Of a stretch of 64,000 bases of DNA, positions 7,631 to 14,993 are shown piece after piece. Below the pieces are notes generated by a model that saw nothing but the letters and a program-made list of their open reading frames with translations, had not been told where the DNA came from and did not search any database. A program made the translations under genes and the position numbers. The DNA is from Cyclonatronum proteinivorum (GTDB taxonomy: Bacteria > Bacteroidota > Rhodothermia > Balneolales > Cyclonatronaceae). Position 1 is the first letter of the stretch, and the number at the start of each line of letters is the position of its first letter. The stretch lies in the NCBI RefSeq assembly GCF_003353065.1, contig NZ_CP027806.1, positions 2,934,501 through 2,998,500 on the forward strand, in the 5' to 3' direction.

Positions 7631-8140
7631 ATGATTATAGAAACGACCATCAACAAACAATCCCGTACGGTTGAAATACTGGATTCAGGCGACAAAGCCA
7701 TTATTGACGGAAAAACACATCCCTTCAGTTTCGAACGACTCGACGCAACCCGCTATATTTTGCGTCTCGGATATCAGACGCACATCATCAGCAACATCAC
7801 CAAAAACGATAATCAGCTCGAGTATACGGTCGATGGCAACTGGCATACGGCCGCTGTAAAAGATGAGCAAATGATGTTGCTCGACCGCATGGGCTTTAAA
7901 GTAGGCGGCAGCGCCAGTGAAGGCATTCTGAAAGCACCTATGCCGGGTAAAATCGTGGATATTCTGGTCAAAGAAGGCGAGACCGTTTCCGAAGGGCAGC
8001 CTGTTGTGATTCTGGAAGCCATGAAGATGGAGAACGAGCTCAAGTCACCGTCCGAAGGTCGCGTGAAAAGCATTAGCGCGGCTCCCGGTCAATCGGTTGA
8101 AAAAAACGGCGTACTTCTGGAGATCGAGCCCCTTGGATAA
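7631..8140 (+). CDS. Biotin carboxyl carrier protein of an acyl-CoA carboxylase
   Basis: A 169-aa protein whose C-terminal 75 residues are a biotinyl domain: APMPGKIVDILVKEGETV, then EAMKMENELKSP with the biotin-accepting lysine in A-M-K-M, then a closing beta hairpin. The N-terminal half resembles the linker/BT-like region of stand-alone carriers in propionyl-/acetyl-CoA carboxylases rather than E. coli AccB. The biotin carboxylase and carboxyltransferase subunits are not in this window. The stop overlaps the murA start by 8 bp. Confidence 0.85.
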   Translation: MIIETTINKQSRTVEILDSGDKAIIDGKTHPFSFERLDATRYILRLGYQTHIISNITKNDNQLEYTVDGNWHTAAVKDEQMMLLDRMGFKVGGSASEGILKAPMPGKIVDILVKEGETVSEGQPVVILEAMKMENELKSPSEGRVKSISAAPGQSVEKNGVLLEIEPLG

Positions 8141-9422
8141 ATTTGTGATTGAGGGCGGCGTACCGCTGAAGGGTGAAATCCGAATCAGTGGTTCAAAAAA
8201 TGCCGCCCTTCCGCTTATGGCCGCCGCTTTACTTGCCGACGGGAAAACGACCCTGCGAAACATACCGGCCCTGCACGATATTCTTACCTTTAATAATGTG
8301 ATGCGTGTTACGGGGGCACGGGTTGAATTCGAGGCCGCTTCTGAAACCCTGACCATCGATCCGGAGAATATTTACTATCCGGAGGCGCCGTACGAACTCG
8401 TGCGTAAAATGCGCGCTTCCTTTTATATGCTCGGTGCTTTACTTGGCCGTGGCGGATACGCGCGGGTTTCCCTGCCGGGCGGATGTGCCTGGGGGCCCCG
8501 GCCGGTTGACCTGCACCTTGAGGGTATGAAAGCCTTCGGGGCAAACATCCGGCTGGAAGAAGGGTATGTCGTTGCCGAACTGCCGGAAAAAGCGAACGGA
8601 CTCAGCGGAGGGCAGTACAAACTGAGCCCTTCGAGCGTAGGCGCGACGGTCAACTTGTTGCTTGCTACCGTGAAAGGTACCGCAACTGCCGTTATTGAAA
8701 ATGCGGCCAAAGAGCCTGATGTGGTACAGCTGTGTCATTTTCTTACCCAAATGGGAGCAAACATTGATGGAATCGGCACGTCCACCCTGCGCATTCAGGG
8801 CGTAAGCAGCCTGAAAGGCGTAACCTTTGACAATGCCCCTGACCGCATTGAAACGGGTACCTTCATGATTCTCGCGGCAATGCACCCTGAATCGCAGCTC
8901 ACGCTCACCAATACGGCCCCCGACGACCTTGGCTTTTTCACCGACTGGTTCAGGAAAACCGGGGCAGAAATTACCATTGAAGGCAGCAGCATTCACCTTA
9001 AGGCCCCCCAAACCATTCAGCCGGTCTCCGTTATCACCGAAATCTACCCGGGCTTCCCGACCGACCTGCAGGCACAGTGGGCAACACTGATGACGCAGGC
9101 CGAAGGCGAGTCGCATGTTACGGATACCATCTACCCGGACCGTTTCAGCTATGTGCCCGAACTTGCGCGACTTGGCGCAAACATCAAAGTGCGCAACAAC
9201 ACCGCTGTGATTAAAGGCAAAACACCGCTGAGCGGTACTTCCATCATGAGCACCGACCTTCGGGCAAGCGTAAGCCTTGTGATGGCGGCTATGTGCGCAA
9301 GCGGACGCTCAGAAGTCCTGCGGGTCTATCATCTCGACCGCGGATACGCAAGGCTGGAAGAAAAACTCAATCAGGCAGGTGCCCGCATTACGCGTGTAAA
9401 CGGCGATGTTGAAGAAGCCTGA
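8133..9422 (+). CDS. murA: UDP-N-acetylglucosamine 1-carboxyvinyltransferase
   Basis: First committed step of peptidoglycan synthesis: transfer of enolpyruvate from PEP to UDP-GlcNAc in the cytoplasm. The fold is the two-domain EPSP-like barrel, with catalytic Cys in LPGGCAWGPRPVDLHLEG, the conserved N terminus DKFVIEGG with GSKNAALPLMAAALL, and YPGFPTDLQAQ carrying the general-base Asp. Length is about 429 aa, normal. I chose the TTG at 8133 because it gives the family-typical MDKFVIEGG; the upstream ATG at 8097 would lie 44 bp inside the biotin carrier gene. The 8-bp overlap suggests coupling. The cysteine form should be fosfomycin-sensitive. Confidence 0.93.
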   Translation: MDKFVIEGGVPLKGEIRISGSKNAALPLMAAALLADGKTTLRNIPALHDILTFNNVMRVTGARVEFEAASETLTIDPENIYYPEAPYELVRKMRASFYMLGALLGRGGYARVSLPGGCAWGPRPVDLHLEGMKAFGANIRLEEGYVVAELPEKANGLSGGQYKLSPSSVGATVNLLLATVKGTATAVIENAAKEPDVVQLCHFLTQMGANIDGIGTSTLRIQGVSSLKGVTFDNAPDRIETGTFMILAAMHPESQLTLTNTAPDDLGFFTDWFRKTGAEITIEGSSIHLKAPQTIQPVSVITEIYPGFPTDLQAQWATLMTQAEGESHVTDTIYPDRFSYVPELARLGANIKVRNNTAVIKGKTPLSGTSIMSTDLRASVSLVMAAMCASGRSEVLRVYHLDRGYARLEEKLNQAGARITRVNGDVEEA

Positions 9423-9910
9423 TTCCTGATTCTTCCGTTTAAAATACTGTGATTGGACTGTTTACTAAAGACAGCTATATCCCGTATATTAAAGAATGAA
9501 TTTTCTTTTCCTGACATTTTGCTGCCTGATTATCGTGTGCACAGCCGCTGTTTTGCGGTCTGTGAGCATGCGCTTTCATGCAGCAGCTGTCACTACCGGT
9601 CAGCATTTAACATCCTGCAGAACAGCTGTTCAGGATGTTCCTACAAACCCAACCCGGCTGCCGGAAACCAAAGGCTATCGTTTCAAAACGTTTGCAGATA
9701 CCCTTTGTAAAAGCGATTCCAAACCTTGTAATACGCTTTATTTTAACAGAAATTTGTACAAAGCGGGTAACGCTTCCCTGTTCAGCCCTGAAAGCTTCAC
9801 AAAAAACTATTTCTCTTCATTTTTTTCTGGTTCTTTGAAACTTCAGTGTTCAGCTTATGCACCTGACAGGTGTACCGTTCTCCGCTTTAAGCATGCGGAT
9901 TTAATTTTTA
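9423..9910 (+). other. Long non-coding leader before the RNase E/G gene
   Basis: 488 bp without a convincing gene. A short open frame at 9496-9978 begins like a signal peptide but overlaps the RNase gene by 68 bp and has a poor protein composition, so I treat it as chance. A small hairpin CACCTGACAGGTG lies about 50 bp before the RNase start. If transcription begins near 9497, the leader is about 410 nt. Confidence 0.4.
9461..9490 (+). promoter_or_regulatory. Candidate sigma-70-like promoter
   Basis: TTTACT at 9461-9466, an 18-bp spacer and TATATT at 9485-9490. The same -10 hexamer precedes several other genes in this window. It would drive the RNase E/G gene with a long leader. Confidence 0.4.
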
Positions 9911-12900
9911 ATGGACAATCAAATAGTAATACATGCAGCGGGTTCGCAGAAGCGGATTGCGCTCATCGAAAATGGTGAATTAGCCCAATTTTTTATTGAA
10001 TCACCTGAGAACCGACGTTCTGTTGGTGATATTTATCTCGCACAGGTCCACAAAGTGATGAGCGGCATTCGTGCCAGCTTCATCGACCTGAGCACCCCCA
10101 AAGACGGCTTCCTGCACTACTCCGATCTCGGAGAGCACCTTGAAGCCTATCTTTCCATGCTGAACGGTCGTGACAGCATACCAAAAAAAGCCAGCGAAGA
10201 ATTGCTGCAGTTCCGGCAGCTGATGGCCAAGAATGAAGTCAAAAATATGACTTCTAAAGATCAGACCATGCACGAGCAGAATCTACTCGGTGCGCTGTTG
10301 AAGCCGGGTCAGAAGGTGATGGTGCAGGTCGTTAAAGAGCCTATCGGCAGCAAAGGACCGCGTGTTTCAACCGATATCACCCTTGCCGGTCGTTTTCTGG
10401 TTCTCATCCCCTTTGGTGACTATGTAGCCGTATCAAAAAGAATCCGCTCCTACAAGGAAAGAAGACGGCTGAAAGGGATCATCAGCGAAATGCTGCCCAA
10501 CGGCTTTGGCGTGATTGTACGCACGGTTGCAGAAGGTCAGGCTGATGATGTACTTCGGGAAGACCTGAAAGATTTGCACGACAAGTGGGTGAATATGCAG
10601 GAAAAGCTGAAGACAGCCAAACCCACTGCCTTGCTGCACCGCGACCTTGACATGACCGAGAGCCTGATTCGGGATTTGTTCTCCAAAAATTACGAGCGGA
10701 TTCTCGTTGATGATACCGAGACCTTTAAGTCTATTAAAGGCTACATCGGCAGGGTCGCGCCGTCCATGGTGAAAAACGTGGAACAGTACAAAGGCAGGGA
10801 TCACGTTTTCGATCACATGAACATCTCCCGGGATGTCAATTCCATTTTCAGTCCAAGGGTGAAAATGCCCAGCGGCGGATACCTGATTTTTGAGCAGACC
10901 GAAGCCATGTATGTAGTTGATGTGAACTCAGGACGCTATGCCGCCAAGAAAGCACAGGAAGACAATTCCCTGAAAACCAATCTCGAAGCAGCCCGCGAAA
11001 TTGCCAAACAGCTGCGGCTCAGGGATATCGGGGGAATCATTGTCGTTGATTTTATCGATTTGCAGCAGGACGCCAATCGGAAAAAGATTTACGACGAAAT
11101 CAAAAAAGAATTCAAGAAAGACCGGGCCAAAACCAATATCCTGCCGATGTCCGATTTTGGACTCATGCAGATCACACGACAGCGGATTCGTCCGAGTGTT
11201 GTGAAATCAGTCTCCAAGGTTTGCCCGATGTGCGGGGGCAGCGGCAGTATTGTTTCCGAAAGCACCCTCCTCTCCGACATTGAAGCATGGCTCAGCAAGT
11301 TCAGCAACAGCTATTCGTACCGCTCGGTTGATCTGTATGTGAATCCGTTCTTCCACTCGGTATTGTTACAGGGCGTAATCAGCACCCGCGTAAAATGGAT
11401 GTTCAAATTCTTCCGACGGATTACCATTCTGCCGGATGAAACCATTTCCCTGAATGATTTCAAGGCGACCCTGCACGGCTCTGAATTTGATATTCATGAG
11501 ACGGTATCCAATGGTGATTCCATCGAAGAAGCCATCAAAGAAAACGAGAAAAACCTCGCCGAACTTGAGAGCGGCGGACGCAAAAACACCGATCTCCTCG
11601 ATATTTACAAGAAAAACGGGCGCAAGAACGGCAATGAGACCAACGGTCAGCAGCGCCGCTCCCCGAATCGTGATGACGCGCAGGGCAGCCGCAATGATGG
11701 TCGCAGCGGATCAGCAAACCGCCGTTCAGGCTCTCAAAATCAGAATCAGAACCAGTCGCAGTCGCAGGACGACGGGCAGGAACGCGGCCGCAAGCGCCCC
11801 GCAGCCGTCAGAATTACGCCTCAGGGCCGGTCTAACAACAAGCTTAAATCGAAGTACTACAAATCCGGCGGCGATGATGATACCAAGGGTTATTCCGATA
11901 ATGATAGTCAGCAGCGCTCTAACCGGAATACTTCTTCCGGGTCGCAGCAGCAGGCGGACTCCAAGCCGCAGAAGCCGGACGCGCCCGAAGTAGCGAAGGC
12001 ACACGCCAAAGAAGAAGTGCCCAATGCCCTTGATGTCGCAAAAGCACACGCAAAGGAAGATGTACCCAACGCACTTGATATAGCAAAAGCACACGCCCGC
12101 AAAGTGCAGCGCGAAGAAACATCCGAAGAGAAAAAGGACGCGGTATCCCAATCCGACAGTTCCACTGATCAAACCGGCCCTGCCGCAGGGGATGGCGCAA
12201 CGGTGCAAACCAAGGATGAGTCCGCACAAACGACCGCTTCAGACAGCAAACAGGCTGAAACTGAAAGCCGTCAGGCGGATTCCACTGCCGATAAACAGCA
12301 GACGCCTGAAACAGATGAAGCACAGGAAACCAAGCCGGCTCAGGGACGTGAGCAAGCAGGTCAACCCGCTGCGGAATCAGCTGAACAGGCAAGCTCAGAC
12401 ACCAAATATGATGAAGACGCTGCCGGCTCCGATGGTGCAAAGCCCAAGCTCAAGGCGCCCAAAAGAGTGAAGCGTGCCCCCCGCGCCGGCGGTAAAAAGG
12501 TGATGGCGAAACCGCCTAAAACCAAAAAGTCGGGCGACAACAAAGAAGACAGCCCGGAAGCTGACGCGGAGAAGACTTCCAATGAACAGCCGCCAAAAGG
12601 CAAAACCGTCAAGACTTCACTCAGTGACGCGAAAGCCGCCAAGTTGCGTGAAATGGACGAACTGAAGGCAAAGCTTTCTGAAGAAACCTTTCGCAAGCCC
12701 GCAGCAGTGAGCGCACAGGACGACAAAAAAACGACGGTTGTCACGAAAACGGTAACACCCCGCAAACCGGCAGCGGCAGACAAACCCGCTAAGGGTGCAA
12801 AGTCCGAAGTGTCCAAAGCTACCCCTGATACTGATTCAGCTTCGGCGGCTTCACCTGCCCCTAAAGACAGTCAGGACCCCTCCGCACCGCCAACGGAAAA

Positions 12901-12922
12901 GGCAGAAGATCGCGACAATTAG
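9911..12922 (+). CDS. rng: Ribonuclease E/G family endoribonuclease with long disordered tail
   Basis: Single-strand endoribonuclease for rRNA maturation and mRNA decay. An S1 RNA-binding domain lies at about residues 35-130 (VGDIYLAQVHKVMSGIRASFIDL). The catalytic domain has its two metal-binding aspartates in VVDVNSGRY (about residue 335) and IIVVDFIDLQ (about 380), and the zinc-link motif CPMCGGSG lies near 440. From about residue 560 to 1003 the protein is low-complexity, rich in S, Q, D, E, K and A. It includes three near-identical 16-residue repeats built on VAKAHAKE-VPNALD (nucleotides about 11990-12105) and a lysine/proline-rich end. The catalytic half is RNase G-sized; the tail recalls the degradosome scaffold of RNase E by architecture, not by sequence. 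Confidence 0.92.
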   Translation: MDNQIVIHAAGSQKRIALIENGELAQFFIESPENRRSVGDIYLAQVHKVMSGIRASFIDLSTPKDGFLHYSDLGEHLEAYLSMLNGRDSIPKKASEELLQFRQLMAKNEVKNMTSKDQTMHEQNLLGALLKPGQKVMVQVVKEPIGSKGPRVSTDITLAGRFLVLIPFGDYVAVSKRIRSYKERRRLKGIISEMLPNGFGVIVRTVAEGQADDVLREDLKDLHDKWVNMQEKLKTAKPTALLHRDLDMTESLIRDLFSKNYERILVDDTETFKSIKGYIGRVAPSMVKNVEQYKGRDHVFDHMNISRDVNSIFSPRVKMPSGGYLIFEQTEAMYVVDVNSGRYAAKKAQEDNSLKTNLEAAREIAKQLRLRDIGGIIVVDFIDLQQDANRKKIYDEIKKEFKKDRAKTNILPMSDFGLMQITRQRIRPSVVKSVSKVCPMCGGSGSIVSESTLLSDIEAWLSKFSNSYSYRSVDLYVNPFFHSVLLQGVISTRVKWMFKFFRRITILPDETISLNDFKATLHGSEFDIHETVSNGDSIEEAIKENEKNLAELESGGRKNTDLLDIYKKNGRKNGNETNGQQRRSPNRDDAQGSRNDGRSGSANRRSGSQNQNQNQSQSQDDGQERGRKRPAAVRITPQGRSNNKLKSKYYKSGGDDDTKGYSDNDSQQRSNRNTSSGSQQQADSKPQKPDAPEVAKAHAKEEVPNALDVAKAHAKEDVPNALDIAKAHARKVQREETSEEKKDAVSQSDSSTDQTGPAAGDGATVQTKDESAQTTASDSKQAETESRQADSTADKQQTPETDEAQETKPAQGREQAGQPAAESAEQASSDTKYDEDAAGSDGAKPKLKAPKRVKRAPRAGGKKVMAKPPKTKKSGDNKEDSPEADAEKTSNEQPPKGKTVKTSLSDAKAAKLREMDELKAKLSEETFRKPAAVSAQDDKKTTVVTKTVTPRKPAAADKPAKGAKSEVSKATPDTDSASAASPAPKDSQDPSAPPTEKAEDRDN

Positions 12923-12947
12923 GAACCTTTAAGCCCGTAATTTAACC

Positions 12948-12984
12948 AAAAGCTGCAAATGGCACGACCTTTGCAGCTTTTGTG
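12948..12984 (+). terminator. Rho-independent terminator after the RNase E/G gene
   Basis: A perfect 12-bp stem (AAAAGCTGCAAA with TTTGCAGCTTTT), a 10-nt loop and a T-rich tail. It overlaps the far-upstream alternative hslV start at 12959, arguing against that start. Confidence 0.8.
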
Positions 12985-13033
12985 CTTTCAATCAACCGGA
13001 CTTCATAACCCGCATACCCACGAATTAAACCCT

Positions 13034-13570
13034 ATGCATATTCATGCCACCACCGTAATCGGTGTGATCCATAACGGCAAAGCCGCAATCTGCGGCGACG
13101 GTCAGGCAACCCTTGACAAAACAGTACTTAAATCAACCGTCCAGAAAGTTAGAAGTCTGCACAACGGCAAAATACTTGCCGGATTTGCCGGCTCTACGGC
13201 AGACGCCTTCACCCTTTTTGAAAAATTCGAAGAGAAACTCAATCAATACAGCGGACAGTTTGAACGGGCTGCCATTGAGCTCGCCCGGGAATGGCGCACA
13301 GATCAGTATCTGCGCAAGCTCGAAGCCCTACTGATCGTGCTCAACAGCGAAAAGGGTCTCCTTATTTCTGGTCAGGGCGATGTTATCGAACCCGAAGACA
13401 ATATTCTCACCATCGGCAGCGGCGGCTCATTTGCCCTAAGCGCGGCCCGGGTGTTAAAAAAGCACGCCCCTCAAATGAGTGCAAAACAAATCGCGGAAGA
13501 AGCCATTCGCACCGCTGCAGACATCGATATTTATACCAATCACAATTTAACGACCTTAGAAATTGGCTGA
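13034..13570 (+). CDS. hslV: ATP-dependent protease peptidase subunit HslV
   Basis: Proteasome-like N-terminal threonine peptidase; forms a double hexamer and works with the HslU unfoldase in the cytoplasm. The ATG at 13034 gives MHIHATTVIGV, so removal of a five-residue propeptide exposes the nucleophile Thr of TTVIGV. It is followed by AAICGDGQATL and the conserved GSGGSFALSAARVL near residue 125. Length is 178 aa, normal. The gene overlaps hslU by 8 bp. Confidence 0.95.
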   Translation: MHIHATTVIGVIHNGKAAICGDGQATLDKTVLKSTVQKVRSLHNGKILAGFAGSTADAFTLFEKFEEKLNQYSGQFERAAIELAREWRTDQYLRKLEALLIVLNSEKGLLISGQGDVIEPEDNILTIGSGGSFALSAARVLKKHAPQMSAKQIAEEAIRTAADIDIYTNHNLTTLEIG

Positions 13571-14993
13571 ATCAACGAAACTCCAGGCACATAAACTCGA
13601 TCACCTCACGCCCCAACAAATTGTTGCTTCCCTTGATCAGTTCATCATCGGACAAAAAGCAGCAAAGAAAAGCGTAGCCATCGCCCTCAGAAACCGCTGG
13701 CGCCGCATGAATGCCGGGGACAGCATACGCGATGAGATCCTTCCGAACAACATCATCCTGATCGGTCCTACAGGGGTAGGAAAAACAGAAATCGCGCGCC
13801 GGCTTGCCAAACTCGCGCGGGCACCCTTCATCAAAGTAGAAGCCACCAAGTTTACCGAAGTCGGCTACGTTGGCCGGGATGTGGAATCCATGATCCGCGA
13901 TCTTACCGAAATCAGCATTGGGATTGTGAAGCAGGAAATGCGTGATAACGTAAAGCCACGGGCTGAAGAAATGGTTGAAGAACGCATTCTTGACATCCTC
14001 ATCCCGCCGCTTTCCAAAAAGCGCAGCACAAACAACTACAACAAAAGCACAACCGCAGGGCAGGAAGTCGGCTTTAACGCTGCCACGGCAAGTGATGAAG
14101 AACTCAATGAGCGCACCCGCGAGAAGTTTCGGCAGAAGCTTGCCAACGGAGAACTTGAAGAGCGCGAAATAGAGCTTCACGTAAAAGCAAGCAGCGGCTC
14201 AACCATGCAAATTTTTGGTCCGCAGGGCATGGAAGAAATGGGGATGAACCTGCAGGATATGCTGGGCAACCTCATGCCTCAGAAAACCAAAAAGCGGAAA
14301 ATGAAAATCAAAAATGCGCGGCAGCACCTGTTTCAGGAAGAAGCCGAAAAGCTCATCGACCATGAGTCGGCGGTTCAGATCGCGCTCGACCGCGTGCAGA
14401 GCACCGGCATTGTCTTTTTGGATGAAATCGACAAAATAGCGGGCAACTCATCCAAATCCGGCGGACCCGATGTGTCGAGACAGGGTGTACAGCGCGACCT
14501 TCTTCCTATTGTTGAAGGCTCTACCGTTACCACCAAATACGGCATGGTAAAGACCGATCACATCCTGTTCATTGCCTCCGGTGCTTTCAACGTCGCCAAA
14601 CCCAGCGACCTCATTCCGGAACTGCAGGGACGCTTCCCCATTCGTGTAGAAATGGATTCCCTCACCGAAGAAGATTTCTACCAAATCCTGACGACGCCCA
14701 AAAATGCGCTCACCATTCAGTATCAGGCCATGATGAAATCCGAAGGCATAGACCTGACGTTCACGGACGAAGCCCTGCGCGAAATTGCAAAAATTGCGGC
14801 CAACGTAAACCACGATGTTGAAAACATTGGTGCGCGCAGGCTGCACACCATCCTTTCAACCGTGCTCGAAGAACTCCTCTACGCCGTCCCGGACGACATC
14901 AGCGAAGGTACCATCCATATCGACCGCGATTATGTCAGCAAACAGCTCGATCAGATCGTTACGGACAAAGACCTCAGTCAGTTTATCCTGTAA
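13563..14993 (+). CDS. hslU: HslU ATPase unfoldase
   Basis: AAA+ unfoldase that feeds substrates to HslV. Walker A is GPTGVGKTEIARRLAKL at about residue 67, followed by the pore motif GYVGRDVESM, the Walker B VFLDEIDKI near 285, the sensor region and the C-terminal ...DLSQFIL that docks into HslV. At 476 aa it is slightly longer than E. coli HslU because of the intermediate domain (about residues 150-240). The start is TTG at 13563 inside the hslV stop region (TTGGCTGA), which implies coupled translation and matched subunit synthesis. Confidence 0.95.
   Translation: MAESTKLQAHKLDHLTPQQIVASLDQFIIGQKAAKKSVAIALRNRWRRMNAGDSIRDEILPNNIILIGPTGVGKTEIARRLAKLARAPFIKVEATKFTEVGYVGRDVESMIRDLTEISIGIVKQEMRDNVKPRAEEMVEERILDILIPPLSKKRSTNNYNKSTTAGQEVGFNAATASDEELNERTREKFRQKLANGELEEREIELHVKASSGSTMQIFGPQGMEEMGMNLQDMLGNLMPQKTKKRKMKIKNARQHLFQEEAEKLIDHESAVQIALDRVQSTGIVFLDEIDKIAGNSSKSGGPDVSRQGVQRDLLPIVEGSTVTTKYGMVKTDHILFIASGAFNVAKPSDLIPELQGRFPIRVEMDSLTEEDFYQILTTPKNALTIQYQAMMKSEGIDLTFTDEALREIAKIAANVNHDVENIGARRLHTILSTVLEELLYAVPDDISEGTIHIDRDYVSKQLDQIVTDKDLSQFIL

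Follow-up and report, generated by a model that had tools for sequence, protein, structure and literature searches.

The window, that is, the entire 64-kb stretch of DNA under analysis, belongs to a genome of 4.29 Mb in a single contig and contains an RNase E/G gene (9911..12922, + strand) coding for 1003 amino acids, identified from its open reading frame and from matches to PF10150 and TIGR00757. The gene is located between murA, which precedes it, and hslV-hslU, which follow it, and both its place and its reading frame are kept in relatives. The three neighboring genes accompany it in L015-L019, L022 and L031; in L041, murA alone was matched beside it within the stretch examined. Across positions 7631-14993 of the window, the order biotinyl-domain protein, murA, RNase E/G, hslV, hslU is retained in L015, L016 and L017. 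Just 3′ of the gene, between its stop codon and hslV, lies a perfect inverted repeat (12947..12982, unstranded; 13-nt arms, 100% complementary), a possible terminator or attenuator. A search of the entire window against Rfam returned no match.

The catalytic part comprises residues 1-560 (9911..11590, + strand), with PF10150 matching residues 157-425 (332 bits for a cut-off of 25.5) and TIGR00757 residues 15-458 (481 bits for a cut-off of 325.95); residues 125-453 align with solved RNase E chains. The motif CPMCGGSG, read from the sequence at residues 438-445 (11222..11245, + strand), conforms to CPxCxGxG, the Zn-link of RNase E/G according to the available part of PMC4435900. The RNase E/G proteins of the outgroup loci L105, L109, L113, L118, L125, L128 and L132 lack CPxCxG at the position where Balneolales have it. 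A preliminary description of this DNA had called the catalytic half RNase G-like. RNase G (NF008689) is indeed the closest equivalog profile, but at 352.5 bits the protein stays below the cut-off of 594. The RNase E equivalogs are also below their cut-offs (NF008074, 218 of 908 bits; NF052586, 311 of 900; NF052588, 256 of 1400). PF10150 matches once in the whole genome, which makes this its sole RNase E/G, and the idea of a paralogue was rejected on that ground.

Composition and motifs of the tail

Residues 561-1003 (11591..12919, + strand) form a tail of 443 amino acids with low hydrophobicity. ILVMFWYC account for 8.4% of it versus 34.8% of residues 1-560, 35% of its residues are charged, tryptophan is absent, and a Pfam search of the tail gave no match even at E 1. 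Judged by composition, the tail looks disordered; the 440 disordered residues of the preliminary description are thus close in length, and probable as to disorder. The tail had also been said to equal that of E. coli RNase E in length; it is long, but somewhat shorter than the ‘over 500 residues’ given in the accessible portion of PMC4435900. A basic patch (motif D, residues 848-870; 12452..12520, + strand), with a net charge of +11 in block 841-870, is internal, and the basic end first described has to be given up, as the last 13 residues have a net charge of -2. In RNase E-type scaffolds, the catalytic part is followed directly by an amphipathic helix that targets the membrane. At this place, residues 571-630 contain no ILVMFWYC at all, and therefore no membrane helix directly follows the catalytic part.

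Within the family of the window protein (f1; f1 to f5 denote GTDB families of Balneolales, by label), ten tails were compared, L005 being left out. Four islands of conservation lie above the 95% limit obtained by shuffling columns: residues 561-574, 641-658, 717-738 and 921-930. The first contains motif A, LDIYKKNG, at the very start of the tail (residues 563-570; 11597..11620, + strand). The second (11831..11884, + strand) surrounds motif B, SKYYKS (residues 647-652), and the last overlaps motif E, LREMDELKAKLSEETFRKPA (residues 912-931; 12644..12703, + strand), part of which is helical (907-922) in a model of low confidence. The patch at 848-870 does not exceed the limit; several tails of the family have a lysine-rich stretch akin to motif D, below the island threshold.

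The third island covers part of a repeat. Motif C occurs as a degenerate copy 1, KPDAPEVAKAHAKE (residues 688-701; 11972..12013, + strand), detected by DNA self-comparison and profile; as copy 2, VPNALDVAKAHAKE (residues 703-716; 12017..12058, + strand), detected in addition by a matrix trained on f5 and predicted by AF2 to be helical; and as copy 3, VPNALDIAKAHARK (residues 718-731; 12062..12103, + strand), detected by profile and island. Comparison of the DNA of this region reveals three 45-nt units in register, hence a period of 15 residues. The triple 16-residue repeat reported earlier accordingly keeps its three units, with a corrected period and with two good copies plus the degenerate copy 1. 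Profile E-values are 2.6e-3, 2.6e-7 and 7.9e-8 for copies 1, 2 and 3, respectively, and below E 0.8 these three copies are the sole matches in the genome. A search of solved structures with the same profile gave one match, at E 0.33, which was judged to be due to chance.

Structure prediction fits a helical tendency of motif C. The full-length AF2 model, made from 4 sequences, is poor throughout (mean pLDDT 37), and in the tail it draws just two helices of at least 4 residues, 707-713 at copy 2 and 907-922 at motif E. A single-sequence AF2 model of fragment 640-740 contains a single element of at least 4 residues, a helix at 706-738 whose block 720-729 has pLDDT 83; that this helix runs unbroken through the repeats is predicted from one sequence only.

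Motifs across Balneolales

An RNase E/G protein was matched in 119 of the 128 genomes of the order. From the 119, 48 proteins were read, a set that omits ten duplicates (L002, L004, L012, L013, L014, L017, L018, L027, L032 and L038). Past residue 560, their tails measure 95-444 amino acids in f1 (n = 11; a contig end truncates the shortest), 116-261 in f5 (n = 17), 194-399 in f3 (n = 4), 419 in f4 (n = 1) and 13-94 in f2 (n = 15). Motif C was found in 10/11, 14/17, 4/4 and 1/1 tails of f1, f5, f3 and f4, and in 0/15 of f2. Its consensus is [LVK]P[NSDQ]A[LI][ED]VA[KR]x[YH] and that of the repeat unit LPxALEVAKAYAxK; the positions A..VA are invariant or nearly so among 21 instances.

A profile (A1) built from these 21 instances was scanned against 244 genomes of the class at E<1e-4. 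It matches 31 of the 36 genomes of the long-tailed families (f1 11/11, f3 4/4, f4 1/1, f5 15/20), none of the 92 genomes of the short-tailed f2 and none of the 116 genomes of other families of the class; ten further genomes, at 0.009-0.096, were taken as noise. The five missing f5 genomes comprise G112 and G113, which are 60% and 51% complete and without an RNase E/G match, G124 (L033), whose frame ends with the contig, and G122 and G123, of one genus, with short tails devoid of motif C. Because the 21 instances come from these very families, matches of the profile within them are in part built in, and the independent tests are the negatives and the matrix trained on f5 alone. This matrix finds motif C in 10/11 f1 tails (the exception, L005, ends at a contig edge), 4/4 of f3 and 1/1 of f4, as well as in 1/4 f5 tails outside the training set; in every tail with motif C, 0-9 of 1000 shuffles score as good. 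In f2 it picks 1 of 15 tails (L031, 3 of 1000 shuffles), counted as chance because 15 tails were tested and the conserved core is absent. In a draw of 394 genomes from the phylum, 7 match the profile (E<=0.003), all of them Balneolales. The phylum survey proposed in the preliminary description thus shows the repeat unit recurring within this order, normally as a single copy, and the independent evolution it had suggested is favored to the extent that motif C was not met outside the order in either scan.

Copy number is the variable element, with three copies in the window protein, two in its closest relative read (L015/G003) and one elsewhere. By this survey, the window repeat is an expansion of a conserved, normally single-copy short linear motif. 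A neutral product of slippage in a functionless tail would also vary in copy number and sit in a tail most of which drifts, as this one does, but it would hardly explain why four families have retained a single-copy motif beyond what shuffles give. The survey makes such an origin most improbable, and the codons of copies 2 and 3 (4 differences at same-residue codons, 6 at changed residues) are too few to decide. Poor conservation of the tail, once named as grounds for abandoning the docking idea, is half true, in that most of the tail drifts but the motifs are conserved.

Motif B, as [KR]Y[YF][KR], is present in 38/48 tails, whereas 500 shuffles gave 0.17 on average and never more than 2; it is missing from 9/15 f2 tails and from L040 (f3). 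It precedes motif C in 28/28 tails having both, with 17-102 residues between them: the order is kept and the spacing drifts. In 6/15 of the f2 proteins read, motif B is at or near the C-terminus, and because it is practically C-terminal in several, those enzymes look like long ones cut after B. In the genome of the window, the bare KYYK pattern at the DNA level was uninformative (11 matches vs 20 for a reversed control). Near the tail end of L019, L043 (f3) and L041 (f4), an extra hydrophobic island is seen, e.g. ASGIVQALVASSKLKE and AGIQLISSLVAEVVKDK, perhaps another lineage-specific docking motif.

Could motif C be a contact of the enzyme with itself, docking on the catalytic part to regulate it or to order a multimer? 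Such a contact would put the motif and the catalytic part on one stretch, and 29 of the 31 profile matches share contig and stretch with the RNase E/G match, the other two (G001, G121) being in frames on other contigs. The full-length AF2 model gave no decision, and since it is poor, the tail may still fold back on the enzyme. Most f2 matches, however, show a core identity of about 60-65% with the window protein, yet the f2 enzymes do without motif C, and the very variable B-C spacing suits a fixed internal contact badly, so that self-contact is regarded as quite improbable.

The history of the motif was examined on a tree of the catalytic core, with 11 of 30 outgroup loci and without L058. 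A supported branch sets off each of f1, f2 and f3, and f4 and f5 group with f1 with a modest support value of 84. At its base the tree does not separate the possible branching orders of f2, f3 and the remaining families. Motif C was therefore either an ancestral feature that f2 has lost or a later gain, made once f2 had branched off. Parsimony counts two changes, the frames L005 and L033 that end at contig edges being set aside. As f2 and genus g36 of f5 (L021, L058) do without it, motif C is dispensable within the order. In other families of the class, a charged insertion of about 120-380 residues is found inside the S1 domain of L111, L118, L121, L123 and L131, flanked by segments that align with residues ~85 and ~129 of the window protein; the insertion of L118 has about 380 residues, and in genome coordinates the charged stretch reaches up to about 490 residues in G177. 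Charged low-complexity stretches thus appear to be placed differently within the class: in Balneolales as a C-terminal tail, in several other families within the S1 domain.

A candidate scaffold and known degradosomes

RNase E/G, RNase Y and RNase J are the three main kinds of nuclease that initiate RNA decay in bacteria. In the genome of the window, RNase E/G alone is above its cut-off; the best RNase Y score is 26 of 454 bits and the best RNase J score 23 of 400. With a sole nuclease of this type and a conserved array of motifs in a low-hydrophobicity tail, a degradosome-like scaffold is the simplest reading. Such scaffolds have a long tail of low hydrophobicity with conserved short motifs, both observed here, and a disorder that composition suggests. 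Their partners include PNPase, a helicase and enolase. The best reading is that the tail represents a Balneolales-specific array of protein- and RNA-docking motifs, functionally like proteobacterial degradosome scaffolds and with motifs of its own. The docking role proposed earlier for the repeats is in keeping with a unit conserved across four GTDB families in a drifting tail and with the two AlphaFold helices.

On balance, a disordered scaffold whose short linear motifs tether RNase E/G to partners is probable, with binding, coupling and partner identity all presumptive. Tethering would couple cutting to further RNA decay. Motif C would form a short amphipathic helix upon binding a protein partner, and its tandem expansion from one to three copies in this lineage would raise valency. 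Motif B (basic-Tyr-Tyr-basic), together with basic patch D, may contact either RNA or an exonuclease, for instance PNPase. The PNPase gene is present in this genome, but PNPase was found in 20/20 genomes searched (19 above the cut-off), and its presence therefore does not follow that of motif C; PNPase as the partner of motif B is a guess, and a doubtful one. A further step, tentative and below even chances, would be a degradosome of Balneolales' own on an RNase G-like core, in which motif C recruits a protein through a new helix-groove contact, motif B serves PNPase or RNA, and the multiplied C site brings more partners to each enzyme.

Alternatively, the tail could be mainly RNA-binding or condensate-forming, motifs B, C and D contacting RNA or promoting clustering in the absence of a dedicated protein partner. 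It is lysine-rich and highly charged, with a patch of net charge +11, and in the available part of PMC11964227 the duplicated REER repeats of P. aeruginosa RNase E bind RNA and support foci. Motif C, however, is not net basic and its near-invariant A..VA suits a protein groove better, which leaves this alternative rather unlikely.

If the scaffold with its helix-groove contact is real, motif C would use a contact found in no described degradosome. The tail-scaffold architecture itself is already known. In the searchable literature, mostly without subscription papers, neither the Balneolales motifs nor any work on RNase E or RNase E/G tails of the order was met, so that a prior description is possible. 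Where the starting point was a vaguely described ‘disordered tail’, the survey yields three or four defined peptides, present in some lineages and absent from others, so that a peptide pull-down becomes a simple way to identify partners. The survey is also relevant to the origin of degradosome scaffolds.

RNase G lacks a long tail. The window core has RNase G as its best equivalog profile, but the protein scores below the profile cut-off and has a long tail. A second likeness concerns the C-terminal GWW peptide by which Caulobacter RNase E binds PNPase (PMC3376730, accessible part). Like it, motif B has two adjacent aromatic residues between basic ones and is C-terminal or nearly so in 6/15 f2 proteins; unlike it, motif B has Tyr/Phe and is internal in the long-tailed proteins. 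In place of a C-terminal GWW flanked by arginines, the window protein has KYYK and a tail devoid of W, and the likeness would be in kind, not in letters. The gamma-proteobacterial enzymes of E. coli and P. aeruginosa differ by their hydrophobic stretch after the core, which the window protein lacks, by the letters of their motifs, and by the core, nearest here to RNase G. In P. aeruginosa RNase E, NDPR binds PNPase and AR1 binds RhlB, and a duplicated motif region parallels the repeats of the window protein (PMC11964227, as far as available). Tandem repeats have been proposed as progenitors of RNase E microdomains (PMC4435900, available portion). In the parts of these sources that are accessible, the gamma-proteobacterial enzymes share with the window protein the overall plan of a catalytic part followed by a long tail with short motifs.
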